A stretch of DNA of 64,000 bases from NCBI RefSeq assembly GCF_001899075.1, contig NZ_MKVA01000003.1, positions 186,001-250,000 on the forward strand, written 5' to 3'. Of this stretch, positions 42,034 through 61,283 are shown piece by piece; position 1 is the stretch's first letter, and every line of letters begins with the position of its first letter. The position numbers and the translations under genes are program-made. Under the pieces are notes generated by a model. The model made no database searches. It was not told the DNA's origin and saw only the letters and a list, made by a program, of their open reading frames with translations. The stretch comes from Devosia sp. 67-54. GTDB lineage: Bacteria; Pseudomonadota; Alphaproteobacteria; Rhizobiales; Devosiaceae.

Positions 42034-42041
42034 GCCGGAAT

Positions 42042-42108: not shown

Positions 42109-42444
42109 GTGACGGTGCTGATCCCGATCCTCGACCCGGATATTTGCGCCTGCCTCGGCGAGGTCATCGACCCCGAGCTCGGCATCAACATCGTCGATCT
42201 CGGCCTCGTGCTGTCGGCCACCCGGTCCGGCGCCGCGATCGAAATCGTCTTCACGCTGACCAGCCGGGCTTGCCCGCTCGGCAGCCTGATCCGCGACGAT
42301 GTGCGCGAGCGGCTCGGCGCCGCATTTCCCGACGCCGAAACCATCGACGTGCGGCTGGTGTGGGATCCCCCATGGTCTGAGGACATGGTGAGCGATCACG
42401 GCTTCGAGCTGCTGGGAATGACGCGAACAAGGAATTATGCCTGA
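42109..42444 (+). CDS. DUF59/MIP18-family protein (iron-sulfur assembly type), module A
   Basis: This 111-residue protein has the hallmark VIDPELGINIVDLGLV motif of the DUF59 family (PaaD, SufT and MIP18 relatives), a TSRACPLG segment with the conserved Cys, and a WDPPWSEDM end. Members help insert or mature Fe-S clusters in specific targets. The GTG start at 42109 has GAAGG upstream. It overlaps the next gene's start by one base. A paralogue with the same layout is at 58783. This is the first gene of an operon DUF59, DUF2249, membrane protein, Crp-Fnr. Confidence 0.85.
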   Translation: MTVLIPILDPDICACLGEVIDPELGINIVDLGLVLSATRSGAAIEIVFTLTSRACPLGSLIRDDVRERLGAAFPDAETIDVRLVWDPPWSEDMVSDHGFELLGMTRTRNYA

Positions 42445-42695
42445 TGTGCAACGACTGCCAAGCGACCGACACCACCATCGACGTGCGCGTGATCGCGCCG
42501 CGCCTGCGCCACCCGATGATCTTCAGCACCTTCGACAACCTGCTGCCGGGCGAATTCTTCCGCATCGTCAACGATCACGATCCGCGCCCGCTGTTCTACC
42601 AGTTCAGCACCGAATATCCGGGCAGCTTCGAGTGGACCTACGAGAAGTCGGGACCTGAGGTGTGGCAGGTCAAGATTGACCGCATCGCCTCCTAG
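42444..42695 (+). CDS. DUF2249-domain protein, module A
   Basis: This 83-residue single-domain DUF2249 protein has a TIDVRVIAPRLRHP strand, the NHD-type core (FRIVNDHDPRPLFYQF) and the ending WTYEKSGPEVWQVKI. The family is abundant in denitrifiers and nitric-oxide-responsive operons, but its biochemical role is not settled. It has Cys near the start (MCNDCQ), absent from the paralogue at 61023. Its end overlaps the next gene by 20 bases, so translation is coupled. Confidence 0.85.
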   Translation: MCNDCQATDTTIDVRVIAPRLRHPMIFSTFDNLLPGEFFRIVNDHDPRPLFYQFSTEYPGSFEWTYEKSGPEVWQVKIDRIAS

Positions 42696-43791
42696 CCAGG
42701 ACGCAACCCGTCTCGCACGTACGGCGAACGTCGTTCTCCTCGGGCTCGCCGGTGCCGCCGCAATGGCGGGCCTCTGGGGTGGTCTCGTCCGCCTCGGCCT
42801 GCCGCTGGAGGGAGACGCCGTCGCCGAAATCCACGGACCGCTCATGGTCTGCGGCCTGTTCGGCACGGTGATCTCGCTCGAACGCGCCGTCGCGCTCGAG
42901 CGGCGCTGGGCGCTGGTCGCGCCGCTGGCCTTCGCGGCGGGCGGCGTGTGCTGCCTGCTCGGCGCGCCGGCTGCCGGGGCGGGGCTCTTTCTTGCCGGCG
43001 GGCTGGTGCTGTTCGCCGCCTCGGTGGCCGTCTTCCTGCTGCAGCGCGCGCTGTTCACCTTCAGCCTCGCCGTCGGGGCCTTCTGCATGGCGGCCGGCGA
43101 TTTCGTCTGGATGCTGTCGGCCGATGCCCGCGCCAGCGTCGGCCTGTGGATCGCCTTCTTCGTCGGCACCATCGCCGCCGAACGGCTGGAGCTGAGCCGC
43201 ACCCTGCGGCCTGGCGAGCTCAGCCGCACGGCCTTTGCCGGGCTGCTGTGCCTGCTGGTCATCGGCGCGGCGCTCGGTATCGACAGCCTGTCCGGGCGCT
43301 GGCTGCTGGGCGGTGCGCTGCTCGGGCTCGCCGTCTGGCTCTGTCGCTACGACGTCGCGCGGCGCGTCATCCGGCGCCCCGGCGCCTCCCGCTTCTTCGC
43401 CACGGGCATGCTCGCCGGCTATGTCTGGCTGGCGGTGTCGGGCGGCCTGCTGCTGTTCGGCGACGACCTCGACCGCGCCTACGACCTGCAATTGCACACC
43501 GTATTCCTCGGCTTCGTGCTGTCGATGCTGATGGCGCACGCGCTCATCATCCTGCCGGCGGTGCTCGGCATCCATCTGAGCTTCAGCCCGTCGCTCTATT
43601 GGCCGCTGGCGCTGCTGCATCTGTCGCTGCTGCTGCGCCTGCTGGGCGGCACCGTCGGCCCCGACTCGCTGCGCCTGCTGAGCGGACCGGTTACCGTCGC
43701 CAGCCTCGCGGCGTTCGTCGTGCTGGTCGTCTGGACGCAATGGCGGTTGCGACGGAATCGACCATTGCCGCGCCCGCTGTCGCTGCCATAG
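42676..43791 (+). CDS. Polytopic membrane protein, NnrS/heme-copper-oxidase-like, module A
   Basis: This 371-residue protein has about 10-12 predicted membrane helices covering most of its length. Two His-containing helices are conserved-looking: AEIHGPLMVCGLFGTV and LQLHTVFLGFVLSMLMAHALI. This is reminiscent of the haem- or copper-binding helices of NnrS and oxidase subunit I, though no full match is claimed. The TTG start at 42676 overlaps the DUF2249 gene. The role is unknown. Its place between DUF2249 and an NnrR-like regulator suggests nitric-oxide or nitrite-related stress at the membrane (inference). Confidence 0.65.
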   Translation: MTASPPSQDATRLARTANVVLLGLAGAAAMAGLWGGLVRLGLPLEGDAVAEIHGPLMVCGLFGTVISLERAVALERRWALVAPLAFAAGGVCCLLGAPAAGAGLFLAGGLVLFAASVAVFLLQRALFTFSLAVGAFCMAAGDFVWMLSADARASVGLWIAFFVGTIAAERLELSRTLRPGELSRTAFAGLLCLLVIGAALGIDSLSGRWLLGGALLGLAVWLCRYDVARRVIRRPGASRFFATGMLAGYVWLAVSGGLLLFGDDLDRAYDLQLHTVFLGFVLSMLMAHALIILPAVLGIHLSFSPSLYWPLALLHLSLLLRLLGGTVGPDSLRLLSGPVTVASLAAFVVLVVWTQWRLRRNRPLPRPLSLP

Positions 43792-43828
43792 CTTGGCGCC
43801 ATGCGAGTGGCCCTGGAGGTCGACCGTC

Positions 43829-44533
43829 ATGCTTGACCGCACGCTGATCCGCGATCTTGCCCTGTTTGCCCGCCTGGACGATGCCGCCCTCGACGACGTG
43901 CTGTCGGAGGCCGGCAGCCAGCGTTATGCCGCCGGCGACGTGGTGTTCGAGCAAGGGGAAATCGCCGAGCGCTTCTTCGTCCTGCTGCATGGCCGCCTGC
44001 GGGTCACGCAGATGACCTCGGAGGGCCAGCAGATCGTCATCCGCATGGTCGCGCCCGGCGACCTCTTCGGCATCGCCAGGGTCATGCAGCGGCCGGACTA
44101 TCCCGGCACCGCCACGGCCGTGCTGGAGAGCGTGGCGCTGGCCTGGCCGATGTCGGCGTGGTCCACCGTGGTCGACGGCCATCCGGCCTTCGCGGTGAAC
44201 GCCATGCAGATCATGGGAGAGCGGCTGCAGGAGGCGCAGCTGCGCATCCGGGAGTTCTCGACCGAGGCGGTCGAGCGCCGTGTCGGCCACGCCGTGCTCC
44301 GGCTCGCCCGGCAGTCGGGCTATCCCGAGGACGACGGGGTACGGATCGATTTCCCCATCTCCAAGCAGGATATCGCCGAAATGACCGGAACCACGCTCCA
44401 CACCGTGTCGCGCATTCTTACCGCCTGGGAGGCGGCTGGTCTGGTCAGCACCGGCCGGCAGAAGCTGCTCGTCAGGAACCCGCATCATCTGCTGCTCATC
44501 GCCGACGGCGTCGAGGCGGCGCTGGCGAAATAG
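43829..44533 (+). CDS. Crp/Fnr-family regulator, NnrR/Dnr-like
   Basis: This 234-residue regulator has a cyclic-nucleotide-fold sensor (GDVVFEQGEIAERFFVLLHGRLRV), a long dimer helix and a winged helix. The recognition helix reads TTLHTVSRILTAWE, with His191 where FNR and FixK have Glu. It has no cysteines at all, so it cannot carry an FNR-type iron-sulfur cluster. This fits the NnrR/Dnr group that responds to nitric oxide. The start at 43829 is set by GGAGG upstream. It ends an operon controlled by a TTGC...GCAA box, so it probably regulates itself. Confidence 0.8.
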   Translation: MLDRTLIRDLALFARLDDAALDDVLSEAGSQRYAAGDVVFEQGEIAERFFVLLHGRLRVTQMTSEGQQIVIRMVAPGDLFGIARVMQRPDYPGTATAVLESVALAWPMSAWSTVVDGHPAFAVNAMQIMGERLQEAQLRIREFSTEAVERRVGHAVLRLARQSGYPEDDGVRIDFPISKQDIAEMTGTTLHTVSRILTAWEAAGLVSTGRQKLLVRNPHHLLLIADGVEAALAK

Positions 44534-44744
44534 GGCGGTTCTCGATGGCGCGCACGATCGCCGCCCGCAGCGCCGCGCGATTGTAGCCGTGCTCGTCCGC
44601 CGAATCCGCGAGGCTGTGGAAATCGGCGATCGGGCAGCCGATGCAATGCAGGTGCCAGTCGATGAACACGCGGATGGTGCGCGGCCAGATGCGCATGATC
44701 TCGTTCAGCGACAGGGTGTCAAGGACAGTGCTGGGGTCGGCCAT
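44496..44744 (-). CDS. DUF1858-type redox-disulfide small protein
   Basis: This 82-residue protein matches the DUF1858 domain. The pattern LSLNEIMRIWPRTIRVF is followed by HCIGCP, the CxxC-like redox pair of this family, and then a helical end with an arginine-rich tail. Members occur with hybrid cluster protein and nitrogen-oxide metabolism. The start at 44744 has GGAGG upstream. A TTGC...GCAA box is centred 57.5 bases away. Its 3' end overlaps the convergent Crp-Fnr gene by 38 bases. Confidence 0.75.
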   Translation of the reverse strand: MADPSTVLDTLSLNEIMRIWPRTIRVFIDWHLHCIGCPIADFHSLADSADEHGYNRAALRAAIVRAIENRPISPAPPRRRRR

Positions 44745-44794
44745 CGCAGCTCCTCCATGAACCGGAAAGCCTAGCCCGCTGCCCGGCGCTGTCC

Positions 44795-44808
44795 TTGCGC
44801 CCGCGCAA
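44795..44808. promoter_or_regulatory. Crp/Fnr box for DUF1858 gene, TTGCGCCCGCGCAA
   Basis: This TTGC-N6-GCAA palindrome is centred 57.5 bases from the leftward DUF1858 start. The divergent gene has a separate box 64 bases away. Confidence 0.65.
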
Positions 44809-44858
44809 ACACCGCCGAAAAAGTCCCGCTGCCGCCGCTGCGACTTTCGTCGCCGTCC

Positions 44859-44872
44859 TTGATCTGGCGCAA
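44859..44872. promoter_or_regulatory. Crp/Fnr box for the 122-residue protein gene, TTGATCTGGCGCAA
   Basis: This mixed-class box (TTGA left half, GCAA right half) is centred 98.5 bases upstream of the ATG at 44964. That is further than the other boxes, so the transcript probably has a longer leader of about 57 bases. Confidence 0.6.
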
Positions 44873-44963
44873 AGTTCGTCACCGGGGCCGGGCGTATGCG
44901 ACCTCCATCGCCCGTCGCGCGCTGCCCGCCGCGCGCGGGACTGCACCGGCAAGGAGGTGATCG

Positions 44964-45332
44964 ATGACGCGCGCCGCAATCTGTCATGTCCAGCTCGAGC
45001 TCGACCGCGAACCGCAGCATCCCTTCGGCGAGCGCGGCCGCCTCTACAACCTCTACGTGCCGCTGCGCTCCGACGGCAGCGTCGACGCCGAGGCGCTGCG
45101 CCGCGGCCATGGCTGCTGCCACGGCACCCGGCTGCGCTCCGGACACCGGCCGGTGGGCGGCAGGATCAGGCTCGGCGACGGCGGCGAGCTGGTGCTCGAA
45201 TATGATGGCGGCCCGCTGTTCCGCTCGGTCCTCGCGCTCGACGCCCCGCTCGCCGTCGGCGCCTCCATCCCCGTCACCGAGGCCAATGGCGAGGCGCACC
45301 GCTTCCAGGTGATCGCGGTGCGGCCCGTATGA
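44964..45332 (+). CDS. Uncharacterised 122-residue protein of the FixK-type regulon
   Basis: No family is recognised with confidence. The protein looks soluble and beta-rich, with an RRGHGCCHGTRLRSG segment containing adjacent cysteines flanked by histidines that could bind metal or haem. There is no signal peptide. The start ATG at 44964 is fixed by AAGGAGGTG at 44951-44959. It is followed after 83 bases by the DUF4342 gene, which has its own box. The presence of two nearby Crp-Fnr boxes argues that it is a real low-oxygen gene. Confidence 0.6.
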   Translation: MTRAAICHVQLELDREPQHPFGERGRLYNLYVPLRSDGSVDAEALRRGHGCCHGTRLRSGHRPVGGRIRLGDGGELVLEYDGGPLFRSVLALDAPLAVGASIPVTEANGEAHRFQVIAVRPV

Positions 45333-45345
45333 GCGCCGCGCCCGC

Positions 45346-46736: not shown

Positions 46737-47077
46737 CCGGTTGAAACGCCACGACTTTGCGGTCGTCGCGCCCGTTGCCGCGCGCCGCCGCCCCCGCCAG
46801 AACGGGTGGCGCGAAACCACGCCTCCAGATGCAACGAACGACGACGGCCAAGCCATGCTGCGCGGTCCTTGCGACAGATGTGTCGATCCCACTGTGGCGG
46901 ATGCCGGCGTCGGCCGTCAATGCGCGACGATGCGGGCTGCGACATGAAGAACCATGTTTTAACCGCGGGGCGGTGTGTAGTGTCACGACGGGGCAGAAAG
47001 AGGGCAGTCGCGATCTGGGCGGATCGCGACGCTGCGCACACATGCGCCCCCGGCATGCAACCAGGAGGCGACGGCGC
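46737..47077. other. Divergent region between the metal-rich exported proteins and ccoN
   Basis: About 340 bases hold no supportable gene. No TTG[AC]-N6-[TG]CAA box was found here, although the oxidase operon would be expected to have one. A 24-base inverted repeat at 47007 is the main feature. Confidence 0.5.
47007..47030. promoter_or_regulatory. 9-bp inverted repeat upstream of ccoN
   Basis: GTCGCGATC and GATCGCGAC are perfect reverse complements around a six-base loop, about 48 bases before the ccoN start. It could be an operator or an mRNA hairpin in the leader. The half-site spacing does not fit FixK. Confidence 0.45.
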
Positions 47078-48730
47078 ATGGTTTCCACAATGACGGTCGG
47101 CGAGCGCCAGATGGCGCTTGGCCTGTGTGTGCTCGTGGCGCTGTGCGGCCTGTTCATGGCAGTCGCCGGCCGCAACGATCTGATGGGGCCGCAGGGCGTT
47201 GTGGTGCTGCTTGCCGGCATCCTCGGCGCCATCGTCGTGCTGCGGCGTCTCGATGCGCCGGAGCCGGGTCCGGAGCGGCTCGCGAGCTATTACGACGAGC
47301 CGATCAAGTTCGGCATCGTCGCCGCCATGGTGTGGGCCATCATCGGCATGCTGGTCGGCGACTGGGTCGCCTGGCTGCTGGCCTTCCCCAGGCTGACCTT
47401 CGCCGATGTGCCATGGGCGAGCTTCGGGCGGCTGCGCCCCATCCACACCACCGGCATCATCTTCGGCTTCGGCGGCAACGCCTTGATCGCAACGTCCATG
47501 CACGTCATGCAGCGCACCTCGCGGGCGCGGCTGCCCGACCAGTTGTCGCCGTGGTTCGTGCTCGCCGGCTACAATCTCTTCTGCGTCCTCGCCGTGTCCG
47601 GCTACCTCATCGGCGTCACGCAGTCCAAGGAATATGCCGAGCCGGAATGGTATGCCGACATCTGGCTGGTGATCGTCTGGGTCACCTATTTCATCCTCTA
47701 TCTGCGCACGCTGGCGCGCCGCCGCGAGCCGCACATCTACGTGGCCAACTGGTACTTCCTTGCCTTCATCCTGGTCGTGGCCATGCTGCACATCGTCAAC
47801 AATCTGGCGCTGCCGGTGTCGCTCAGCAGCGCCAAGAGCTACTCGCTGTTCTCCGGCGTGCAGGACGCGATGGTGCAATGGTGGTACGGCCACAACGCCG
47901 TGGCCTTCTTCCTAACCGCGGGCTTCCTCGGCATGCTCTATTACTATCTGCCCAAGCGGGCAGGGCGGCCGATCTACTCCTATCGCATGTCGATCATCGG
48001 CTTTTGGGGCATCACCTTCTTCTACGTCTGGGTGGGCTCGCACCATCTGCATTACACGGCGCTACCGCAATGGGTGCAGACGCTCGGCATGACCTTCTCG
48101 GTGATGCTGCTGGTGCCCTCCTGGATCGCCGCCGCCAATGCGCTGCTGACCCTCAACGGCGCCTGGCACAAGGTGCGCGACGACGCCACGCTGCGCTTCA
48201 TGATGGTGGCGGCGGTGTTCTACGGCCTGTCGACCTTCGAGGGCTCGTTCCTCGCCATCCAGCCGGTCAACGCGCTGTCGCACTATACCGACTGGACCAT
48301 CGCCCACGTGCATGCCGGCACGCTCGGCTGGAACGCCATGATCATCTTCGGCGCCATCTACTACCTCGTCCCGCAATTGTGGAAGCGGCCGAGCATGTAT
48401 TCGCCGCGGCTGGTCGAGGTGCACTTCTGGTTCGCCATCGCCGGGACCGTCATCTACGTCTTTGCGATGTGGAACTCCGGCATCACCCAGGGGCTGATGT
48501 GGCGCACCTACAATGACAGCGGCACGCTCGCCTATTCCTTCGTGGATTCCCTGCTCGCCATGCATCCCTACTACATCGCCCGCGCCTTCGGCGGCCTGCT
48601 CTTCCTCATCGGCACGGCGGTCGGCTGCTACAACATCTGGATGACCACGCGCACCGCGCCGGCCGCCCGCATCGCGCCGGCCGGCCAGGTGCCCGACATG
48701 CCCTCGGCGCCCGTGGTGGCTGGGGAGTAG
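47078..48730 (+). CDS. ccoN: CcoN, cbb3-type cytochrome oxidase catalytic subunit I
   Basis: This 550-residue protein with 12 or more membrane helices binds low-spin haem b, haem b3 and CuB and reduces oxygen at high affinity. His-bearing helices are visible in RPIHTTGIIFGFGGNAL, QWWYGHNAVAFFLTAG, GSHHLHYTALP and IAHVHAGTLGWNAM, the last being typical of CcoN. The ATG at 47078 follows AGGAGG. It begins the rightward operon ccoN-ccoO-ccoQ-ccoP followed by assembly genes. Confidence 0.95.
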   Translation: MVSTMTVGERQMALGLCVLVALCGLFMAVAGRNDLMGPQGVVVLLAGILGAIVVLRRLDAPEPGPERLASYYDEPIKFGIVAAMVWAIIGMLVGDWVAWLLAFPRLTFADVPWASFGRLRPIHTTGIIFGFGGNALIATSMHVMQRTSRARLPDQLSPWFVLAGYNLFCVLAVSGYLIGVTQSKEYAEPEWYADIWLVIVWVTYFILYLRTLARRREPHIYVANWYFLAFILVVAMLHIVNNLALPVSLSSAKSYSLFSGVQDAMVQWWYGHNAVAFFLTAGFLGMLYYYLPKRAGRPIYSYRMSIIGFWGITFFYVWVGSHHLHYTALPQWVQTLGMTFSVMLLVPSWIAAANALLTLNGAWHKVRDDATLRFMMVAAVFYGLSTFEGSFLAIQPVNALSHYTDWTIAHVHAGTLGWNAMIIFGAIYYLVPQLWKRPSMYSPRLVEVHFWFAIAGTVIYVFAMWNSGITQGLMWRTYNDSGTLAYSFVDSLLAMHPYYIARAFGGLLFLIGTAVGCYNIWMTTRTAPAARIAPAGQVPDMPSAPVVAGE

Positions 48731-48734
48731 CGCC

Positions 48735-49472
48735 ATGTTCAATTCGCACTACCAGCTCGAGCGCTACTCGATCGGCCTCGCCGTCGCCATCATCGTCGTC
48801 GCCAGCATCGGCGGCCTCGTCGAGATCGGCCCGCTCTTCACCATCCAGCAGACGGTGGAGGCCGCGCCGGGCATGCGCGTCTATACCCCGCTCGAGCTTG
48901 CCGGCCGCAACATCTACATGCGCGAAGGCTGCTATGCCTGTCACTCGCAGATGATCCGCACGCTGAGCGACGAGGTCGAGCGCTACGGGCCATACTCCCT
49001 CGCCGTCGAGTCGCAATACGACCACCCGATGCTGTGGGGCTCGAAGCGCACCGGTCCCGATCTCGCCCGCGTCGGCGACAAATATTCCGACCAGTGGCAG
49101 GTGGCGCACCTCACCGATCCGCGCGCCGTGGTGCCGGAATCGATCATGCCCGGCTACGCCTTCCTCGAGCGCACCAGCCTCCGGACCGACGATCTGCCGT
49201 CCAACCTCGCGGCGCTGAAGGCTCTCGGCGTCCCCTACAGCGACGAGATGGTCCACAACGCCACGACGGATGCCTATGGCCAGTCGGCGCCCGACAGCAC
49301 CGAGGCGCAGGGCGTCAAGGCCCGCTACGGCGATGCCACGGCGGTGCGCAGCTTCGACGGCAATGCTGGTGTCGTCACCGAGATGGATGCGCTGGTCGCC
49401 TACCTGCAGGTGCTGGGCAAGCTCACCGACGTGGCGCACGCCGAACCGCAACTGCAAGGAGACGCGCAATGA
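48735..49472 (+). CDS. ccoO: CcoO, membrane-bound monohaem cytochrome c subunit II of cbb3 oxidase
   Basis: This 245-residue protein has one N-terminal membrane helix (SIGLAVAIIVVASIGGL) and one c-type haem site, EGCYACHSQMIR, close to residue 70. The usual Met ligand region with GYAFLERT is present. It transfers electrons from CcoP to CcoN. The start at 48735 is four bases after the ccoN stop, and its end overlaps ccoQ. Confidence 0.95.
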   Translation: MFNSHYQLERYSIGLAVAIIVVASIGGLVEIGPLFTIQQTVEAAPGMRVYTPLELAGRNIYMREGCYACHSQMIRTLSDEVERYGPYSLAVESQYDHPMLWGSKRTGPDLARVGDKYSDQWQVAHLTDPRAVVPESIMPGYAFLERTSLRTDDLPSNLAALKALGVPYSDEMVHNATTDAYGQSAPDSTEAQGVKARYGDATAVRSFDGNAGVVTEMDALVAYLQVLGKLTDVAHAEPQLQGDAQ

Positions 49473-49642
49473 TGGGCCTCGAGCACAACCTCATGCTCGG
49501 CTTCGCCAAATCGTGGGGCCTGTTCTACCTGATCGCGCTGGCGCTGGGGGTCGTCGTCTACACCTTCTGGCCCGGCAACAGGAAGCGCTTCGAGCGCGCC
49601 AGGACCTCCATCATGAACGACGAGAGCGGGCCATGGGCGTAA
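49469..49642 (+). CDS. ccoQ: CcoQ, small cbb3 oxidase subunit IV
   Basis: This 57-residue single-helix protein (FYLIALALGVVVYTFWPG, then a basic stretch RKRFERAR) is standard for CcoQ/FixQ. The ATG at 49469 overlaps the ccoO stop, and the gene's end overlaps the ccoP start by ten bases. It stabilises the interaction of CcoP with the CcoNO core. Confidence 0.9.
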   Translation: MMGLEHNLMLGFAKSWGLFYLIALALGVVVYTFWPGNRKRFERARTSIMNDESGPWA

Positions 49643-50505: not shown

Positions 50506-50684
50506 CCTCGCGGCTGCGCACACGGCTGCTCGTCGGGCTGGCGCTGGCCGCCGGCGTCGCGCTGTTCGCCGCCGCCAATACGCATCTGATCTGGACCTCG
50601 GTGCTGTCGCAGCCCGATTGCGTGCCGCATCTCAAGGCGCCCGGCCCGGCCGGCGGCTACCAGGCCGCGCAATCGTCCTGCTGA
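50502..50684 (+). CDS. Small membrane protein within the cbb3 assembly operon
   Basis: This 60-residue protein has one hydrophobic segment (LLVGLALAAGVALFAAANTH) near the N-terminus and a short periplasmic tail with SQPDC and a C-terminal Cys. The ATG at 50502 overlaps the ccoP stop by four bases. It occupies the position where ccoG and ccoH usually lie, but it is too short to be either. Two cysteines that would face the periplasm could play a copper or redox role. Confidence 0.7.
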   Translation: MTSRLRTRLLVGLALAAGVALFAAANTHLIWTSVLSQPDCVPHLKAPGPAGGYQAAQSSC

Positions 50685-50694
50685 ACGAAGGGAA

Positions 50695-53798: not shown

Positions 53799-54007
53799 GC
53801 GTGCTGATCTATCTGATCCCGGTCTCGATCGCGCTCGGGGCCATCGGCCTCGTCGCCTTCCTCTGGTCGCTGCGCAGCGGCCAGTACCAGGATCTCGACG
53901 GCGCCGCCGAGCGCATCCTGTTCGACGACGACCGCCCGGTGCGCGCTGGCCGCGACGCGGCGCGGCCGGCGCCGCGGGGAGGGCGCAATGCCGATGGTCC
54001 GGCATGA
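53795..54007 (+). CDS. ccoS: CcoS, cbb3 oxidase maturation protein
   Basis: This 70-residue protein has an N-terminal helix (LIYLIPVSIALGAIGLVAF) followed by LWSLRSGQYQDLDGAAERILFDDD, the CcoS hallmark. CcoS is required for insertion of haem and copper into CcoN. It is the last gene of the operon and starts within the ccoI end (ATGA). Confidence 0.92.
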   Translation: MSVLIYLIPVSIALGAIGLVAFLWSLRSGQYQDLDGAAERILFDDDRPVRAGRDAARPAPRGGRNADGPA

Positions 54008-54187
54008 CCGCCGCGGCGTCGCTGCCGCGCTGCGCCCTCCGGTTCGTTCGGCGGCGTGATTTATCGTCGCGGCCCCGGCTGGCGACCCGGTCCTGACCGG
54101 CGGCATCGTCGTGCCGGCGGCCGGCTTGCCCGCGCCGCGGCTGGCCCCTAAGCTGCCGTGAATTTCACGAGCCAGCAGTGTCCAGCA

Positions 54188-55657
54188 ATGATCTCGTTGC
54201 TTCGCCAGCGATGGGCGCCGTACGTCGCCGCAGTGGCGTTCGTCGGCATTTCGACCGCCGTCCGGCTCGCCATTCACAATCTGCTGCCGAGCTCGGCGGT
54301 CGGGCTGCTGTTCGCCCCGGCGATTCTCGCCGCCGCCATGTGGGGCGGCCTGTTTCCCGGCCTGTTCGCCACGCTCGTCGCGACCCCGGCGGTGTTCTAT
54401 TTCGTCTCCAACCGTGCCGATCCCATCGACTCCTCCATTCTCAACATCACGCTGTTCCTCATCGTCGGCGCCACCATCGCCTGGCTCGGCGGCATGCTGC
54501 ACCGCACGCGTGCCGAATGGGCGGCGGTCAAGGTCGCGCTGCAGCGGCGCGAGGCGCATCTGCAATCGGTGCTCGACACCGTCCCCGACGCCTCGATCGT
54601 CATCGACGCCAAGGGGACGATGACCTCCTTCAACCGGGCGGCCGTGCGGCAGTTCGGCTACCAGCCGGAGGAGGCGCTCGGGCAGAATGTCAGGATGCTG
54701 ATGCCCTCGCCCTACAGCGAACAGCATGACGGCTATCTGCACCGTTATCTGCAGACCGGCGAAAAGCGCATCATCGGCATCGATCGCGTCGTCGTCGGCC
54801 GCCGCAAGGACGGCTCCACCTTTCCCATGACGCTCGCGGTGGGCGAGTCGCGCACCGGTGACGACGTCTATTTCACCGGCTTCATCCGCGATCTCACCGA
54901 GCACCAGGAGAGCGAGGCCCGGCTGCAGGAGGCGCAGAGCGAGCTGGTCCGGCTTGCCCGCCTCAACGAGCTGGGCGAAATGGCCTCGACCCTGGCGCAC
55001 GAGCTCAACCAGCCGCTGGCGGCGATCGCCAATTACGTGCAGGGCTGCACCCGGCTGCTGGCGCAGATCCCGGGCGCCCCGGCCGAGCTGATGCGCGGCG
55101 CCTTGCAGGAGACCGCCAAGCAGGCGTTGCGGGCCGGCGACATCATCCGGCATTTGCGGGAGTTCACCACCCGCGGCGAGACCGAGAAGCGCCCCGAAGA
55201 CGTCAAGAAACTGATCGAGGAGGCCGGGGCGCTCGCCCTCGTCGGCTCGCGCGAGTATGGCATCCGCACCGAATTTGCGTTTGCGCCGGACGACGCCATG
55301 GTGCTTGCCGATCGCGTGCAGATCCAGCAAGTGCTCACCAACCTCATGCGCAACGCCATCGAGGCCATGCGGGAAAGCCCGCGCCGCGAGCTCGTGGTCC
55401 GCACCTATGTGGAAGGAAACCAGGCAATGCATGTCGACGTCAGCGACACCGGCCCCGGCATCGCCGACGAGATTGCCGACCGGCTATTCCAGCCCTTCGT
55501 CACCACCAAGGCCGGCGGCATGGGCATCGGCCTGTCGATCTCCCGCCGCATCATTCAGTCCCACGGCAGCGACCTGACCTACCGCCGCAACGAGGCCGGC
55601 GGCTCGACCTTCAGCTTCGCGCTGCCGATCGTCCAGGAGGCCCCGAGCGATGAGTAG
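54188..55657 (+). CDS. fixL: FixL, haem-PAS oxygen-sensing histidine kinase
   Basis: This 489-residue membrane kinase has four N-terminal membrane helices (residues about 10-105) and one PAS domain (about 125-235) with the haem signature: His180 in [10 protein letters not shown] and Arg200 in [13 protein letters not shown]. The kinase core has the phosphoacceptor His271 ([13 protein letters not shown]), and the ATP site has [10 protein letters not shown]. It activates FixJ when oxygen is low. ATG at 54188 is preferred, and a GTG at 54158 would add ten residues without a ribosome-binding site. The end overlaps fixJ. Confidence 0.93.
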
Positions 55658-56294
55658 CGCGGATGTCGTTGTCCATATCGTCGACGACGAGGAGCCGGTG
55701 CGCAATTCCCTGGCCTTCCTGCTCGGATCGGCCGGCTTTGCGGTGCGCACCCACAGCTCGGCGGCGGCCTTCCTCGACGTTGCGCCCTCGGTGCGCAACG
55801 GGTGCCTCGTCACCGACCTGCGCATGCCCGATATCGACGGCGTCGAGCTGCTGCGGCGTCTCAAGGCCGCCGGCACCATGCTGCCGGCGATCGTCGTCAC
55901 CGGCCATGGCGACGTGCAGATGGCGGTCGAGGCGATGAAGACCGGCGCCATGGATTTCATCGAAAAGCCGTTCAGCGACGAGGTGCTGATCGACTCGATC
56001 AACCGCGCGGTGGCGGTCGCTGCCTCGCGCGGCGACGCGGCGGCGGCGGCCGCGCGCACGCATGAGCGCCTCGCCAGCCTCAGCGATCGCGAATTGCAGG
56101 TGCTGAAGCGGGTGGTGCAGGGGCAGGCCAACAAGGCGATCGCCTACGAGCTCGGCCTCAGCCCGCGCACCGTCGAGGTCTATCGCGCCGGCCTGATGGG
56201 CAAGATGCAGGCCAAGAACCTGGCCGAGTTGGTGCGCACCGTCATCGACATCGATCTCGACCAGTTCGGCGGCTCGGGCCCCGACCCCTCTTGA
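55650..56294 (+). CDS. fixJ: FixJ, response regulator
   Basis: This 214-residue regulator has a receiver domain (Asp12-Asp13, phosphoacceptor Asp56 in VTDLRMPD, Lys in EKPF) and a LuxR/NarL-type helix-turn-helix ([33 protein letters not shown] by position residues about 140-175). The start overlaps fixL by eight bases. Phosphorylated FixJ turns on fixK. A FixK-type box follows its stop codon, for the next small gene. Confidence 0.94.
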
Positions 56295-56304
56295 TCTGAC
56301 GCAA
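56291..56304. promoter_or_regulatory. Crp/Fnr box for FixT-like gene, TTGATCTGACGCAA
   Basis: This mixed-class TTGA-N6-GCAA box overlaps the fixJ stop. Its centre is only 44.5 bases before the ATG at 56342, so with the box at -41.5 the transcript would be nearly leaderless. Confidence 0.65.
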
Positions 56305-56341
56305 AGCGCGGGTCCGGGGCGGGGGCTAGTTTCGCCGCATC

Positions 56342-56680
56342 ATGGCCCGCATTCTCCTCATTGCGCTGGATACCGAGCTTCGCCGGTCACTCGAATTTGC
56401 GCTGGCGGCGGAGGGCCACGACGTCACCTCGCGCGCGAGCATTGCCGCGCCGCACGAGCCCAATTTCGATTGCACCGTGCTCGACCATCATGCGGTCGGC
56501 GCCGACGGGGCGGCGGCCGCCGCGTTCTGCGGCCGCCATGCGCCGGTGATCCTGCTCGCCAACCAGGCCTCGCATCCGCTGGCGCCGTGGACGTTCCGCA
56601 CCCTGCTGAAGCCGCTGCTCGGCCTCTCGCTCACCGATGCGGTCTACGAGGCTGTGGCGGCGCGCAGCGCCACTAAGTAA
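56342..56680 (+). CDS. FixT-like stand-alone receiver-fold protein
   Basis: This 112-residue protein looks like a response-regulator receiver domain. The first strand is ARILLIALDTE with a single Asp10 instead of the acidic pair. The possible phosphoacceptor is Asp48 in TVLDHH, and Lys90-Pro91 matches the conserved KP turn. It lacks the Ser/Thr of active receivers. It has Cys44 and Cys63. Caulobacter and Sinorhizobium encode FixT, a receiver-like inhibitor of FixL induced by FixK. Gene position between fixJ and fixK plus a FixK box fit this role. Confidence 0.65.
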   Translation: MARILLIALDTELRRSLEFALAAEGHDVTSRASIAAPHEPNFDCTVLDHHAVGADGAAAAAFCGRHAPVILLANQASHPLAPWTFRTLLKPLLGLSLTDAVYEAVAARSATK

Positions 56681-56689
56681 ACCCCCTAG
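56673..56689. promoter_or_regulatory. Possible FixJ-binding site before fixK
   Basis: The stretch CTAAGTAAACCCCCTAG has short complementary ends (CTA/TAG) and a TAAGTA...CCCC pattern reminiscent of FixJ sites of rhizobia. It lies about 70 bases before fixK and overlaps the stop codon of the preceding gene. Confidence 0.3.
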
Positions 56690-56757
56690 TCGCACGACCG
56701 GAATTTCGGCGCACGGCCCGGCCCGGCAGTATCTCCCCATTACCTGGAGACGCCGTC

Positions 56758-57408
56758 ATGTTTGCCCAAACCGCCATCCCGATCCCTGCCACTCCCAGCC
56801 ACTTCCAGGATCCGGATGTGCGCGATCTGCTCGCACAGAGCCAGCCGGGGACGGTGAGCTACTATCCGGCCGATGCCATGATCTACGCCCAGGGCGACGA
56901 CACCGGCCCGCTCTATCTCGTCGAGTTCGGCACCGTCCGCATCTGCCAGATGACCGCCGACGGGCGCCGCCAGATCACCAGTTTCTGCTACGCCGGGGAC
57001 GTCTTCGGCCTCGAGCCCGGCGAGGAGCACGAATGCTGCGCCGAGAGCGTCGACGGCGCCGGCATCCGCATGCTGCGTCCGGCGAACAGTGCCGGCTTCG
57101 CCCAGAAGCTGCTCGGCTTCGCGCTGCGCCACTTCGCCCGCATGCAGTCGCATCTGGTGCTGCTTGGCCGGCTGAGCGCCAACGAGAAGATGGCGAGCTT
57201 CCTGTGCGACCTGCTCGACCGCCAGGACACCGGCGACACGGTCGTCCTGCCCATGCAGCGCAGCGACATCGCCGACTATCTCGGCATCACCTTCGAGACG
57301 GTGTCGCGCGTGCTGCGCGTGCTCAAGGACCGGGGGATCATCCGCGTCACGGCGCTCGACCGCATCGAGATCCTCGATCCCGGCGCGTTGCGTACGCTGA
57401 GCGACTGA
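56758..57408 (+). CDS. fixK: FixK, Crp/Fnr-family activator of the low-oxygen regulon
   Basis: This 216-residue regulator has an N-terminal cyclic-nucleotide-like fold (YPADAMIYAQGDDTGPLYLV) and a winged helix with DIADYLGITFETVSR. The recognition helix keeps Glu180, Ser183 and Arg184 of the FNR/FixK class, which read TTGA...TCAA. There is no N-terminal cysteine cluster, so it is FixK rather than FNR. It is placed directly after fixLJ and the FixT-like gene. It converges on the FAD reductase gene with only two bases between stops. Confidence 0.9.
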   Translation: MFAQTAIPIPATPSHFQDPDVRDLLAQSQPGTVSYYPADAMIYAQGDDTGPLYLVEFGTVRICQMTADGRRQITSFCYAGDVFGLEPGEEHECCAESVDGAGIRMLRPANSAGFAQKLLGFALRHFARMQSHLVLLGRLSANEKMASFLCDLLDRQDTGDTVVLPMQRSDIADYLGITFETVSRVLRVLKDRGIIRVTALDRIEILDPGALRTLSD

Positions 57409-57410
57409 GC

Positions 57411-58565
57411 TCAGTAGATCGACCGGCAGTAGCGGCCATCGCGCGCGAGGTGGCGAAGACAGGCTGCCGCCTCCTCCGGCGATGTCCGCCCCTCATGCGC
57501 GATGATCTCGAGCAGCGCCGCGTGCACCGCCGGCGCCATGCCGGCGGCGTCGCCGCAGACATAGATCGACGCGCCGTTCTCGATCCATGCATAGAGTTCG
57601 GCGGCGTGCTCGAGCAGCCGGTGCTGCACGTACACCTTACCAGCGATATCCTGCGAGAATGCCAGGTCGAGCCGCGTGAGCGTTCCGTCCTCGATCGCCG
57701 CATCCCATTGATCCGCATAGATAAAATCGTCGCGGCGGGAACGGGCCCCAAACACCAGCCACGCCCGTCCGGCGCTGGTCCGCGCCCGCCGTTCCGCCAC
57801 GAACGCGCGGAACGGCGCGACCCCCGTTCCGGCTCCGATCATCACGATATCCCCTTGTAAACGCAGCCGAAATCGCGGTTCCGGCTGCACGAAGACCGGC
57901 AGCGTCGTCCCCGGCCGCGCCTGCGGTGCCATATACCCCGTCACCACCCCCAGCCGCTGCTCCCCCCGCAGCGAATAATCCAGCGTTGCCAATGTGATAG
58001 CCGCTCTCGCCGGGTCCACCGCCGGGCTCGACGCGATCGAACAGAGCCGCGGCTGCAGCGGCCGCAACCCAGCCACCACCGCCTCCGCCGCAAGGCCTTC
58101 CACCGGCCACCCCCGCACGATGTCCTGGATGTGGTAAGCGCGCAGAAACCCCCGCCGCGCCTCGGTTTTTTCGGGTGCGGCAAGCGCCCGCAATTCGGTG
58201 CTTCCGCTCAATTTCGCCCACAGATTGAGAAACCGCGGCGTCGCGACGGCGATTTCGAACTGCGTAGCCAGAGCCTGCGCGAACCGCATGCGCCCACCCC
58301 CGACTCGCACCTCCGCGTGCCCATCGATGCCGAGCACCGTGAGCACGGTCTCGACCAGCCGCGGATCGTTGCGAGGCACGATGGCGAGCGCATCGCCAGC
58401 GGAATAGCTCAGCCCGCTGCCGCGCAGATCCACTTCGATATGCCGCTTCTCGTTGCGCGCGCCTGGCCCTGTGAGGACGACATTGGCAACGACCGGCGCT
58501 TCGAACGGCCGGGACGCGCCGTAGTGCGGCGGAGCGTCGGGCATGATCAATTCGGCGAGCGGCAT
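57411..58565 (-). CDS. FAD/NAD(P)H reductase resembling the CysJ C-terminal half
   Basis: This 384-residue cytoplasmic flavoprotein has the FAD-binding helical domain (SYSAGDALAIVPRND, LCSIASSP for FAD) and a pyridine-nucleotide domain (GAGTGVAPFRAFV, YVCGDAAGMAPAVH). This is the C-terminal half of diflavin reductases such as CysJ, with no flavodoxin domain. It would pass NADPH electrons to a separate flavodoxin, ferredoxin or Fe-S protein. It is the last gene of the leftward six-gene operon. It overlaps the 79-residue gene by 19 bases. Confidence 0.82.
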   Translation of the reverse strand: MPLAELIMPDAPPHYGASRPFEAPVVANVVLTGPGARNEKRHIEVDLRGSGLSYSAGDALAIVPRNDPRLVETVLTVLGIDGHAEVRVGGGRMRFAQALATQFEIAVATPRFLNLWAKLSGSTELRALAAPEKTEARRGFLRAYHIQDIVRGWPVEGLAAEAVVAGLRPLQPRLCSIASSPAVDPARAAITLATLDYSLRGEQRLGVVTGYMAPQARPGTTLPVFVQPEPRFRLRLQGDIVMIGAGTGVAPFRAFVAERRARTSAGRAWLVFGARSRRDDFIYADQWDAAIEDGTLTRLDLAFSQDIAGKVYVQHRLLEHAAELYAWIENGASIYVCGDAAGMAPAVHAALLEIIAHEGRTSPEEAAACLRHLARDGRYCRSIY

Positions 58566-58786
58566 CGGCCGATCAGGGAGCAGGCGCCCCGGTCGGGCCG
58601 GGTCAGGCGATGCAGCAGCGCGTCGAAGCGCCGCCAGCCATGGATATTGTCAGGGCGCAGGATGGCACAGGCCCCGCCGGCCAGCCGACAGGCGGCCTCG
58701 GTCTCGCCGGCCGCCGCCAGTTGCCGCAGGCTCTCGAGCAACAGGTCGATCAGCGCGTTCGCCTGGGAAGGAGCGTCAGCACTCAT
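58547..58786 (-). CDS. Uncharacterised 79-residue protein of the nsrR-divergent operon
   Basis: No family recognised. The protein is helical and soluble, with three Cys (EAACRLAGGACAI and GACSLIGRC region) and a WRRFDALLHRL segment. The start at 58786 lies in an ATGA overlap with the DUF59 stop, and its end overlaps the reductase gene start. Tight packing with overlapping starts and stops supports that it is translated. The cysteines suggest a small electron or Fe-S partner of the adjacent reductase (inference). Confidence 0.65.
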   Translation of the reverse strand: MSADAPSQANALIDLLLESLRQLAAAGETEAACRLAGGACAILRPDNIHGWRRFDALLHRLTRPDRGACSLIGRCRSPN

Positions 58787-59100
58787 GCGAACCCCAAATG
58801 CTGCTTGGCCGCGTCGGTCATCATCTCGGGAACCCAGTGCGGCTCGTAGGTCAGCGTGACGTCGACGAACTCCACGCCCGGCACGGCCCACGCCCCGTCG
58901 CGCGCGCCGTCCTTGAGGAAACCGGTGGCCGGACACCCGCGTGTCGTCGTGGTCATGACGATGTCGACCACGCCGCCTTCGGCTGCCGTGATGCTGTAGA
59001 CGAGGCCGAGATCGACGATGTTGTAGCCGAGTTCCGGATCGATGACGACGCGCAGCGCTTCCGTCACCCGTTCGATCAATGCGTCGCTCTCGGCGCTCAT
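58783..59100 (-). CDS. DUF59/MIP18-family protein, module B
   Basis: This 105-residue protein has VVIDPELGYNIVDLGLVYS, the DUF59 hallmark, and TTTRGCPATGF with the conserved Cys, ending in YEPHWVPEMMTD. It is a paralogue of the gene at 42109. Related proteins (PaaD, SufT) act in Fe-S cluster maturation. The start at 59100 overlaps the tandem DUF2249 gene stop by four bases. The operon context links it to nitrosative-stress control by NsrR (inference). Confidence 0.87.
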   Translation of the reverse strand: MSAESDALIERVTEALRVVIDPELGYNIVDLGLVYSITAAEGGVVDIVMTTTTRGCPATGFLKDGARDGAWAVPGVEFVDVTLTYEPHWVPEMMTDAAKQHLGFA

Positions 59101-59612
59101 GGCTTTGCATCCTTGCCGCCGATGCGGATCAGCAGGCGATAGGTGGTGCCGTCCGCATCGAATCCACCGCGCCAGGCGTGCCCGCGCTTGGCGAGTTCGG
59201 GGAACAGGAACACCGGTTCGCGGCCGAGCAGCGCCGCGAGCACCTCGCCGGTCGGCATCGCTTCAATTGCCGCAAGGATATTCACCATCGGTTCGGGTGG
59301 ATCGAGGTCGCGACCATCGACATTGCGCACCGGTGCCGGCCAGTCCGAGTTACTGTCCACCGGAGCATAGGCATCCGCCTCGCCCGTCGGATAGAACAGC
59401 ACCTGCCAGTCGCCGCCGCCCATCTCGATGGCTTCGTTTCCGAAGCCTCTCGCCCCGAGCACGGCAAACAGCGGCGTCGGCTTGAAGTTCGCGAACAGAC
59501 GCAGCCCTTCGTCCGGCGCCAGCCTGCCGATCGCTTCCATGATCGCCGCGAAGGGCTCGCCCCCGGCCCGCAATATCGGCCGAACGTCCAGGTCAACGTA
59601 ACGCGAGATCAT
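59097..59612 (-). CDS. Tandem DUF2249 protein, module B
   Basis: This 171-residue protein has two DUF2249-like halves: YVDLDVRPILRAGGEPF with the second strand GLRLFANFKPTPLF, then NVDGRDLDPPEPMVNI with EPVFLFPELAKRG. Each has the family's strand-loop pattern ending in WQVLF- or YRLLI-type strands. It is a two-domain form of the single-domain proteins at 42444 and 61023. It follows the membrane protein gene by nine bases. Function unknown; the family is linked to denitrification. Confidence 0.82.
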   Translation of the reverse strand: MISRYVDLDVRPILRAGGEPFAAIMEAIGRLAPDEGLRLFANFKPTPLFAVLGARGFGNEAIEMGGGDWQVLFYPTGEADAYAPVDSNSDWPAPVRNVDGRDLDPPEPMVNILAAIEAMPTGEVLAALLGREPVFLFPELAKRGHAWRGGFDADGTTYRLLIRIGGKDAKP

Positions 59613-59621
59613 TCAGTCACC

Positions 59622-60977
59622 TCAGGGTTGAGCAACTAGGGCACAGAGCAACCGTGGCCGGTGTGGAACGTCTTGCCCTTGCGGGCCTATGGCGACATCG
59701 GCCAGCCGGCGCGTGCGCACGAACTCGACGACAAGTCCGGCGGTCGCCAGCAACAACAGCAAGGCGAGACCACGGAACACGAGCGCCTGCTCCGCCAGGA
59801 GAGCTACTGTCCCGAACCAGACGGCGCCGAAGTAGAGATAGAACCATTTGCGGGCGCGGCTTTCGACGACGAGGTCCTGCACCCGCGGCGTGGGAGCACG
59901 ACCCAGCAGCGGACCGTAGCATTCGAGCCAGGTGACGAAGGCGACGATCTTGTAGAGCTGCGACAGGCCAAGGCCTGACAGCCAGCCGAAGGCGAGCAGG
60001 TAGAGCACCGCTCCGGCAAACCGCGGCATTTGCCCCAGCGCCAGCAGCGCCAGCAGCAGCGCCGCAGCGAGGGCAAGTGAGATCAGCGCCGGCGCCGCCA
60101 TCAAACTGTTGGTTTCGAGCTTGCGCCGCTTGCGCTTGGCATAGAGTCGAATCACGTCGTGACCGTAGGCGGCCAGCACGGGCACGGCCAGCAACGCCGC
60201 GGCGACGAACACGGGGGTAGGGTCGGCGTTCAGCAGGACTGCGCCTGCACCTCCGCCGACGGCGAGCAGCAGCACGCCGATGCCGCCCCACAGCGCAGCG
60301 ATCGAGGTCCACCGCCTGTCTTCGGGGGCCAGAATGAACATTGCGAGCAGGCGATAGCTGACACCCATCGCGGACAAGGTAAGCCAACCGCCGACGCCGG
60401 CCACGATGTGCAAGGGCAGGCCGCTTGCCGCAAGGTCGGCGAGCGGCGGCGCCGTTGCAAGGCCGGTGAGAACAAAGGCGAAGATCAGGCCGAGGCTGGC
60501 GGCAGCCGCGACGCCACAGAGCCCGGCGACGAAGAAGCGGGCGGGCAAGGGCAGTGGCCGGCCTGCCCACAGGGTGCGGCCCAGATTGTAGAGCACCAGA
60601 ACGAAGCCAAGTGCCAGCAGCGAGCCGGCCGCCGGAAGCAGCGGCCAATCGCCCTCGAGCGTACCGTCGAGTTGCAGGAAGCCGCAAAGCAGCAGCACGA
60701 GACCGGCCAGCAGACAGCAGAGAGTAGCAAAGGGTAGGTGATTGTCGTGCAGAGGTCTGGCGACCAGCACCGGAACGAACTGGAACAGAGCTCCACAAAG
60801 CAGCAGGCTCAGCCAGCCCAGCGCCACCACGTGTACCAGCACCAACGTGGCCGGCGCTTCGACCGGAGCGCTGGGAAAGCCGAAGCCGAGGACCATCATC
60901 GTCTCCGCCGCCAGCAGCGCGACGAGCGCCGCGGCAAAGTACGACATGGTCCAGCGCGACAGTGAGACACCAGCCAT
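59622..60977 (-). CDS. Polytopic membrane protein, NnrS/heme-copper-oxidase-like, module B
   Basis: This 451-residue protein has about 12 membrane helices. The His-bearing helices LVHVVALGWLSLLL and LPLHIVAGVGGWLTLSAMGVSYRL resemble haem-ligand helices of oxidase subunit I and NnrS. It is longer than the module A protein at 42676 and not an obvious homologue across its full length. The start at 60977 has GGGAGG upstream. It is the second gene of the leftward operon, following a DUF2249 gene. Candidate roles are haem- or copper-based NO handling or electron transfer. This is inferred from context. Confidence 0.7.
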   Translation of the reverse strand: MAGVSLSRWTMSYFAAALVALLAAETMMVLGFGFPSAPVEAPATLVLVHVVALGWLSLLLCGALFQFVPVLVARPLHDNHLPFATLCCLLAGLVLLLCGFLQLDGTLEGDWPLLPAAGSLLALGFVLVLYNLGRTLWAGRPLPLPARFFVAGLCGVAAAASLGLIFAFVLTGLATAPPLADLAASGLPLHIVAGVGGWLTLSAMGVSYRLLAMFILAPEDRRWTSIAALWGGIGVLLLAVGGGAGAVLLNADPTPVFVAAALLAVPVLAAYGHDVIRLYAKRKRRKLETNSLMAAPALISLALAAALLLALLALGQMPRFAGAVLYLLAFGWLSGLGLSQLYKIVAFVTWLECYGPLLGRAPTPRVQDLVVESRARKWFYLYFGAVWFGTVALLAEQALVFRGLALLLLLATAGLVVEFVRTRRLADVAIGPQGQDVPHRPRLLCALVAQP

Positions 60978-61022
60978 CGAGAGGCCTCCCGGCCCGGCCT
61001 GCGAAGCGGTCGCCGTGGCCGG

Positions 61023-61283
61023 TTACGCCACCTTGAGCAATCTGGCGATTTCCACCCGCCAGACCTCTGGGCCGCTTTCGAGGTAGGTCCAGGAGAACTG
61101 CCCGGGATGCTCAGCTTCGAGCTGGTAGTAGAGCGGCTTGGGGTCGTGGTCATTGACCAGCACGAACCCCGTTCCGGGTGCCAGCCGGTCGACGAGCTCG
61201 AAGATCTTTTGGTGGCGCTGCATCGGCACCAGAGAACGCACGTCGATGGTGTCTGGCGTTTGTGCGGCCGCAGGATTGGGCAT
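61023..61283 (-). CDS. DUF2249-domain protein, module B, first gene
   Basis: This 86-residue protein is close to the one at 42444: TIDVRSLVPMQRH, FVLVNDHDPKPLYYQL and WTYLESGPEVWRVEI. The start at 61283 has CAAGGAG upstream. It leads the six-gene operon DUF2249, membrane protein, double DUF2249, DUF59, 79-residue protein, FAD reductase. A 17-bp AT-rich palindrome lies about 110 bases upstream, between it and nsrR. Confidence 0.87.
   Translation of the reverse strand: MPNPAAAQTPDTIDVRSLVPMQRHQKIFELVDRLAPGTGFVLVNDHDPKPLYYQLEAEHPGQFSWTYLESGPEVWRVEIARLLKVA

Follow-up and report, generated by a model that had tools for sequence, protein, structure and literature searches.

We analyzed a 64,000-nt stretch of DNA from Devosia sp. 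67-54 (positions 186,001 to 250,000 of contig NZ_MKVA01000003.1, referred to here as the window), which carries two gene modules that each combine DUF59 and DUF2249 proteins with a polytopic membrane protein. The membrane proteins, and their families, are called memA (module A) and memB (module B). Gene content, linkage, operator motifs, predicted fold, unit homology and invariant histidines were computed for both modules. The original prediction, which was made from the letters of the window and its reading frames, had proposed that these modules are controlled by different nitric oxide (NO)-linked regulators and form a membrane-based system that makes or repairs an iron-sulfur (Fe-S) or haem center during nitrosative stress. 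As a whole, that interpretation was partly supported.

Gene content and conservation of the modules

The genes of the two modules, in the order in which they are read, are as follows.

42109-42444, + strand: DUF59 / FeS_assembly_P protein of module A (PF01883, E 1.4e-12)
42444-42695, + strand: DUF2249 protein of module A (PF10006, 5.8e-30)
42676-43791, + strand: memA, a 12-helix membrane protein with a predicted haem-copper-oxidase-like fold (AlphaFold2 (AF2) model, Foldseek; invariant H53, H274 and H288)
43793-44533, + strand: Crp/Fnr-family regulator of module A (PF00027, 1.5e-17; PF13545, 4.1e-16)
61023-61283, - strand: DUF2249 protein, first gene of module B (PF10006, 6e-32)
59622-60977, - strand: memB, a 12-helix membrane protein with a predicted haem-copper-oxidase-like fold (AF2 model, Foldseek; invariant H49 and H190)
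59097-59612, - strand: double DUF2249 protein (PF10006, 6.8e-33, two stretches), second half TusA-like (PF01206, 2.4e-5, below cut-off)
58783-59100, - strand: DUF59 protein of module B (PF01883, 1.3e-16; invariant Cys in G-C-P)
58547-58786, - strand: 79-residue accessory protein (recurs in other memB loci)
57411-58565, - strand: CysJ-like flavin adenine dinucleotide (FAD)/nicotinamide adenine dinucleotide (phosphate) (NAD(P)) reductase that lacks the N-terminal part of CysJ (TIGR01931, 1.1e-113)
61475-61897, + strand: NsrR-like Rrf2-family repressor, divergent from module B (PF02082, 1.1e-33; NF008240 NsrR)

The order originally described for module A, DUF59-DUF2249-memA-Crp/Fnr, was confirmed gene by gene, as was that of module B, which runs from DUF2249 through memB, the double DUF2249, DUF59 and the 79-residue protein to the reductase, opposite the NsrR-like gene. 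Successive genes are separated by -1, -20 and +1 nt in module A and by +45, +9, -4, -4 and -19 nt in module B. The window holds four DUF2249 domains in three genes, and these are all that a search of the 4.2-Mb genome found.

Both DUF59 proteins scored above the PF01883 cut-off of 23.5 bits (48.1 bits in module A and 61 in module B). The module B protein has C56, within the G-C-P motif, in 76/76 aligned rows, and a Cys is also visible in the module A sequence itself. DUF59 proteins take part in the assembly of Fe-S clusters (PMC4982691), and it is DUF59 with its invariant Cys that carries the Fe-S link proposed for the modules. For DUF2249, each of the 61 rows has D45, D47 and P48, and 96% have H46; a sequence search against solved structures gave no relative (best 0.49 and 0.65). 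The 79-residue protein had no Pfam match, and its C33 is conserved in 93% of 49 rows.

Loci of memB were collected by a pattern scan of GTDB genome contigs, from which the best 80 of 447 relative-encoding stretches, some of them near copies, were retained; per-gene counts cover the loci whose flank was long enough for the test in question. The double DUF2249 gene was downstream of memB in 78/78 loci and DUF59 in 75/78, with all 75 DUF59 matches lying within 2.5 kb of memB and none farther. DUF2249 was upstream of memB in 54 of 76 loci, and the 79-residue protein accompanied memB in 47 of 77. In every locus with all four genes (57/57) their order was DUF2249-memB-double DUF2249-DUF59.

The analysis also covered 60 relatives (memA and memB) and samples of 385 genomes of the class (memA and memB) and 398 of the phylum (memA), the last two samples including the window's own genome. 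Six of the 60 relatives have memA, adjoined by DUF59 in 6/6 and by DUF2249 in 5/6 (missing in L023); a second memA copy in one of these genomes (L024 in G006), cut at a contig edge, was left out of the counts. The class and phylum samples added four strong memA loci, with DUF59 in 4/4 and DUF2249 in 3/4 (one divergent), besides three weak partial matches that were left out. NnrS-like genes were near two of these four distant loci and a nosZ-like gene near one. Two clear memB genes in the 60 relatives (L025 and L026) both had the arrangement DUF2249-memB-double DUF2249-DUF59; a weak match, L016, was left out. In the class sample memB gave three strong matches (L108-L110, context left out) and nine distant ones, of which six (E 2.3e-9 to 4.4e-13) were viewed in context; a DUF2249-like gene adjoined all six and DUF59 one. 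Because the same order recurs in many genomes, the gene arrangement is not due to chance, and the conserved linkage on which the original prediction had been staked is present in other genomes. Distant memB relatives L152-L157, each with a DUF2249-like neighbor, seem to be further families outside known assignments.

The claim that module B carries its own NADPH electron supply, in the form of the CysJ-like reductase, did not survive these comparisons. No CysJ-like reductase was found downstream of memB in 72 testable loci (one match was 5.2 kb off, in L078), and it was absent from both module B stretches of the genome's own family and order. A search of the 60 relatives with the reductase gave no lead, and in its own genome the only match was itself. 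It reached 380.9 bits against TIGR01931, the model for the assimilatory sulfite reductase flavoprotein CysJ, whose cut-off is 668 bits, and covered model positions 227-597 only; the missing N-terminal part is presumably the flavodoxin domain. The 0/72 count rules the reductase out as a built-in part of module B, and it looks like a local neighbor.

Predicted fold and conserved histidines of memA and memB

By sequence, the two membrane proteins fall outside the Pfam families. memA had no Pfam or NCBIfam match at E 0.1, and memB had no Pfam match at that threshold and a single NCBIfam match (0.066) far below the cut-off of the model. Against Pfam, 16 proteins from a wide memB alignment and 11 from the memA family gave nothing better than 0.01, and matches came from single members only: PF00115 did not reach its cut-off (one of 16 memB members at 0.029, none of 11 memA members), and PF05940 (NnrS) matched no member of either family at E 0.1. 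The memB profile likewise had no match at E 1 in a sequence search of solved structures.

The single-chain AF2 model of memB, whose 47 input sequences came from the window, from L025 and L026 and from 44 of the 80 named loci, had a predicted local distance difference test (pLDDT) value of 91.7 and a predicted template modeling (pTM) score of 0.92, and that of memA, built from 11 sequences, had values of 91.3 and 0.88. Each model shows 12 long helices, so that the earlier count is kept for memB and its range of 10-12 for memA becomes 12. Foldseek comparison of the memB model with the PDB gave 212 matches, 33 of them with E <=0.001, headed by a cbb3 oxidase (3mk7, E 3.8e-7, template modeling (TM) score 0.69) and an NO reductase (4xyd, 4.2e-7). 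Judged by their titles, the best 50 of the 212 matches were all haem-copper oxidases, NO reductases or supercomplexes holding one. For memA, ranks 1-26 of the best 50 matches were of haem-copper type and the rest noise, the best being a cbb3 oxidase (E 6.5e-3, TM 0.69). Based on these models, a 12-helix fold like that of haem-copper oxidases and NO reductases is clearly predicted for memB and more weakly for memA.

The possibility that the membrane proteins are unrelated transporters, which would have told against the original prediction, was considered for each. It was rejected for memB on its best 50 fold matches, all haem-copper enzymes, and for memA because transporters appeared only among Foldseek matches with E above 0.6; the listed fold matches thus point elsewhere.

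To compare the families at the level of repeats, profiles of memA, memB, CcoN and NnrS were cut into three four-helix units each, at borders of our own choosing, and 66 pairs were aligned with hhalign; 66 pairs with reversed columns served as the control, and E-values are given per pair. The best pair was memA unit 3 with NnrS unit 3 (2.9e-7). Units within memB resembled one another (1-2, 1.8e-6; 2-3, 1.1e-5; 1-3, 1.3e-4), and memB unit 1 matched memA unit 3 (1.8e-5) and CcoN unit 3 (4.1e-4); the best reversed-column control was 0.011. After multiplication by 66 the top five pairs remained below 0.01, and the pair of memB unit 1 and CcoN unit 3 came to about 0.03. The units suggest a link of memA and memB to each other and to NnrS and, weakly, of memB to CcoN. 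Over the whole length, memA aligned with NnrS at 1e-4; memB with NnrS gave 0.015, and memA or memB with a NorB set gave 0.049 and 0.53. A single sequence family of memA and memB was considered and rejected, with a whole-length hhalign value of 0.048, or 0.006 with a wider memB profile. memA and memB are, then, two membrane families without a Pfam or NCBIfam model above cut-off and with a predicted oxidase-like fold. The original statement that the same families repeat in both modules consequently stands for DUF59 and DUF2249, and not for the membrane proteins, which are two sequence families with a common predicted fold.

The catalytic subunits of haem-copper oxidases and NO reductases have six conserved histidines for the haems and the dinuclear site. 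All 47 memB rows have H49 (helix 2) and H190 (helix 6), as do all 16 rows of an alignment with distant relatives; in memA, H53 (helix 2) and H274 and H288 (helix 10) are invariant in 11/11 rows. The six-histidine set is therefore absent: memB keeps just two invariant histidines and memA three, so that neither has the active site of the oxidases. These residues would likely hold a single bis-His haem in each protein. In a weak whole-length alignment of memB with CcoN (0.0065), H49 lies opposite the second His of the HVH motif, which we take to be a low-spin haem ligand. The haem link proposed earlier is supported by the predicted oxidase-like fold, weaker in memA, and by the invariant histidines.

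memA and memB thus resemble the cbb3 CcoN and NorB catalytic subunits in predicted fold but lack most of their conserved histidines. There is also a likeness to the haem-copper oxidase homology (HCOH) families described by Pei et al. 2014, whose members are reportedly homologous to the oxidases, have 12 helices in three units, conserve two histidines and occur in denitrification contexts. Set against that description, memB corresponds in its oxidase fold, 12 helices, two conserved histidines and lack of a catalytic site; memA fits too, though with H288 as an additional invariant His. A published study mentions an association of DUF2249 with the haem-copper oxidase homology superfamily (PMC11218638).

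Operator candidates and regulators

Three palindromes were identified as operator candidates.

61385-61401, between module B and the Rrf2 gene: ATATATTGTCAATATAT (other strand ATATATTGACAATATAT), NsrR-type operator candidate
42041-42056, 52 bp upstream of the first module A codon: TTTGCGCTGGCGCAAA, Crp/Fnr-NnrR-type operator candidate
39897-39912, 49 bp before the likely ubiD start (39962, chosen): TTTGCGTTTGCGCAAA, Crp/Fnr-NnrR-type operator candidate

For the Rrf2 gene facing module B, NsrR was the best NCBIfam model, although at 139.7 bits it is below the cut-off of 182, with RirA second at 124.2 bits. The published NsrR motif is gATGyAT-N5-ATrCATc (PMC1274295), and with two mismatches allowed its core was found in 37/77 module B promoters. 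In 200 sets of windows drawn at random from these loci, the count averaged 2.25 and reached 8 at most; this control took in coding DNA, and dinucleotide shuffles of the promoters, which were added, had a mean of 2.56 and a maximum of 7 (100 sets). The NsrR-type motif was present in 14 of 19 loci with a divergent Rrf2 gene. A refined motif, ATRYATTGWCAATRYAT, was found in 41/77 module B promoters, a count that is not independent because the motif was refined on those very promoters.

The window operator is the only match on the plus strand of the window to ATRYATTGWCAATRYAT with up to two mismatches, and it has two mismatches to ATGYATNNNNNATRCAT, with exact matches among relatives (L049, L062 and L068). 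With two mismatches allowed, the published core matches the plus strand of the 64-kb window at four places, this operator included, so that the operator in this genome alone makes a weak case, and it is the relatives that carry it. Together, the linked NsrR-type gene and the near-consensus operator indicate that module B would belong to an NsrR regulon.

The TTGC...GCAA box originally noted before module A is present, and is better described as the 16-bp palindrome listed above. The pattern TTTGCG-N4-CGCAAA occurs at two places only in the whole genome, before module A and before ubiD, and a control pattern at none. In stretches of roughly 1 kb, six of ten other module A loci showed boxes with up to one mismatch, a count that has no matched control. 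The regulator gene of module A showed general Crp/Fnr domains only, specific models being far below cut-off. Before memB operons, Crp/Fnr-type boxes were near background (4/77, against a mean of 2.3 and a maximum of 7; and 10/77, against a mean of 2.8 and a maximum of 10). The NO-linked control that had been predicted is thus supported by the NsrR-type operators of module B and its relatives and by the rare palindrome of module A.

The ubiD and ubiX genes lie directly upstream of module A (37457-42033), with a U32 peptidase gene at 37457-38395, and both ubiD and ubiX were inside the fetched stretches for five of six close memA genomes (in G006, beside the cut copy). We take the ubiD, ubiX and U32 peptidase genes to serve oxygen-independent quinone synthesis, and they may share control with module A through the matching 16-bp palindrome. 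In Bradyrhizobium, both norE, which has TTGCGTCGGCGCAA, and a U32 peptidase gene depend on NnrR (PMC6710368). The region 44496-44808 of the window holds a DUF1858 coding stretch on the - strand (29.1 of 32.2 bits) and, in the gap between it and an unassigned gene for 122 residues (44964-45332), a perfect TTGCG-N4-CGCAA box (44795-44808). Genes of a cluster with DUF1858 as its annotated representative were seen again in 11/80 memB loci.

Regulatory make-up varies within family B. Of 76 memB loci with a long enough upstream flank, 33 had the upstream DUF2249, the 79-residue protein and the refined NsrR-type motif, with no such Crp/Fnr gene within 4 kb; 15 lacked all three of these and had such a Crp/Fnr gene; and 28 were mixed. 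A memB tree of 82 rows, built by a quick method and with L074 left out, requires five or six changes in the upstream DUF2249, at least four of them on starred branches. These repeated regulator switches within family B mean that one core under two NO-linked controls recurs inside one family.

The Crp/Fnr gene directly after memA would also suit a distinctly unlikely alternative, in which the modules are sensors of NO or nitrogen oxides and a haem membrane sensor signals through DUF2249 to transcription. We know of no signaling role for DUF59, and 25/80 memB loci have no Rrf2 or Crp/Fnr gene of these kinds within 7 kb (some flanks being short). Published work on DUF2249 does lend the sensor explanation weight: Thermus DrpA, a periplasmic DUF2249 protein, has been linked to nitrate signaling and affects nar and dnr expression (PMC6282519), and DUF2249 genes of the haloarchaeon H. 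mediterranei are induced in denitrification and are called putative sensors (PMC11218638). The latter source records the function of DUF2249 as unknown and notes its recurrence in denitrification clusters.

Genome setting and possible role of the modules

Beyond the NsrR-like gene are a NarK-like gene (62604-63845, best model below cut-off), with a one-mismatch TTGCG-N4-CGCAA box 62 bp before it (62528-62541), and then narG (2168.9 bits). On another contig nirK (348.2 bits) and nnrS are about 2 kb apart. The stretch between the modules (46757-57408) holds cbb3 genes (COX1, FixO, a heavy-metal P-type ATPase and FixS), a two-component system and, at 56758-57408, a second Crp/Fnr gene. The reading frame of the cbb3 ccoN gene is as follows.

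47105-48730: window cbb3 ccoN reading frame

Across the genome PF00115 found four proteins, three CtaD-type oxidases and the window cbb3 gene, and PF02239 found no cytochrome cd1 nitrite reductase. PF00115 thus gave no NO reductase in the whole genome, a search that did not take in Hmp, NorVW and Hcp. As positive checks, the NorB-type protein of L058 scored 207 bits and two others, which were taken for NorB, 210 and 247 bits. An ordinary NO reductase should have shown, because PF00115 detects NorB-type proteins and the completeness of the assembly is 99.93, and the host should make NO because it has nirK.

A genome with nirK and narG but no PF00115-detected NO reductase, together with the NO-reductase-like fold and the NsrR-type operator, might suggest that memA, memB or both are unusual NO-consuming enzymes, a new class of NO reductase that replaces the missing one. 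We consider this very unlikely. With two or three invariant histidines the dinuclear-site histidines of known enzymes are absent, a haem plus second metal site would require other ligands, and the genome may not need such an enzyme if it has other NO sinks of the kinds named above.

It is also unlikely, in our estimate, that the modules are accessory or assembly factors that insert haem or metal into an NO reductase or the cbb3 oxidase rather than handlers of NO damage. The cbb3 genes between the modules would agree with such a role, as would a NorB-type gene (PF22085) in L058 and PF00115-type genes taken for norB in L092 and L103. COG4309 is presumably the same as DUF2249. Rodionov et al. 2005 assigned COG4309, with nor genes, to NnrR or NsrR depending on the taxon and proposed that, being often co-transcribed with norB, it may be relevant for NO reductase (PMC1274295). 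However, the genome in hand has no NO reductase that PF00115 can find, and no more than 11/80 memB loci have a FixO-type gene within 7 kb.

The occurrence of DUF2249 in NO regulons is thus already in print, and the modules described here differ from that account in that its COG4309 passages name neither a membrane partner nor DUF59 (PMC1274295). Among the open-licence papers listed by literature searches on DUF2249 (combined with DUF59, with NnrS or with nitric oxide) and on COG4309, none dealt with the present modules. A known counterpart of memA and memB is NnrS, a membrane protein which is under NsrR or NnrR in other bacteria (PMC1274295) and is described as a haem protein that shields the iron pool from dinitrosyl iron complexes (PMC11526790). 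The likeness is seen in the unit 3 and whole-length alignments of memA with NnrS, and a cluster with one annotated representative NnrS neighbors memB in 13/80 loci. In contrast to NnrS, memA and memB are without a PF05940 match and are accompanied by DUF59 and DUF2249, and the genome has a separate, true NnrS.

We favor, at about an even chance, an explanation in which the modules supply NnrS-like haem proteins and an Fe-S carrier that act against NO damage. NO would relieve NsrR at module B, or work via the Crp/Fnr regulator at module A, and the genes would be switched on. Each module would then provide one oxidase-fold membrane protein that has lost the O2/NO-reducing site and probably holds a single bis-His haem, with a DUF59 protein of the Fe-S cluster carrier type and DUF2249 as its soluble partners. 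As proposed for NnrS, the membrane protein would, at the membrane, bind NO or handle nitrosylated iron; DUF59 and DUF2249 would deliver or receive Fe-S clusters or iron, such that damaged centers might be protected or rebuilt. Haem binding, contact with NO, Fe-S transfer, the action of the regulators and the order of these steps are what we infer here.

Several observations weigh against this explanation. None of the 262 Foldseek matches of memA was below 0.001, and its own units were not significantly alike (0.045, 0.2 and 0.78). The known repeat of CcoN, whose profile was shallow (8 similar rows), was not recovered (0.34 to 0.76), nor was one found within NnrS (0.21 to 0.7); because the CcoN repeat was missed, the unit method is insensitive, and its few positives come from one set of borders. 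The haem is deduced from histidines, and for both DUF59 proteins PaaD-type models score close to SufT-type. In addition, 3/78 memB loci were without DUF59, 22/76 without the upstream DUF2249 and 40/77 without an NsrR-type motif. Finally, the periplasmic location of Thermus DrpA and its part in nitrate signaling suit a sensor better than repair (PMC6282519).

A more specific version of the NO-damage explanation is, taken in full, rather doubtful. In this version, the memB haem between helices 2 and 6 would be the low-spin site of the oxidases (helices 10 and 2) turned by one unit of the pseudo-three-fold scaffold, a rotation that we infer, whereas memA would keep the usual pair of helices 2 and 10. 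With DUF59 and DUF2249, the membrane proteins would form a membrane complex for the handling of Fe-S clusters and iron-nitrosyls, which would allow a bacterium that has nirK but no ordinary NO reductase to withstand the NO it makes. With nirK and no PF00115-detected NO reductase in the genome, the effect of deleting a module may be visible in this organism. For the families concerned, these analyses tie DUF2249 and DUF59 to two membrane families with a predicted oxidase-like fold, so that the role of DUF2249 and the oxidase look-alikes under NO can be studied in a defined operon, for which a likely operator, the partner proteins and the two or three most telling histidines are named.

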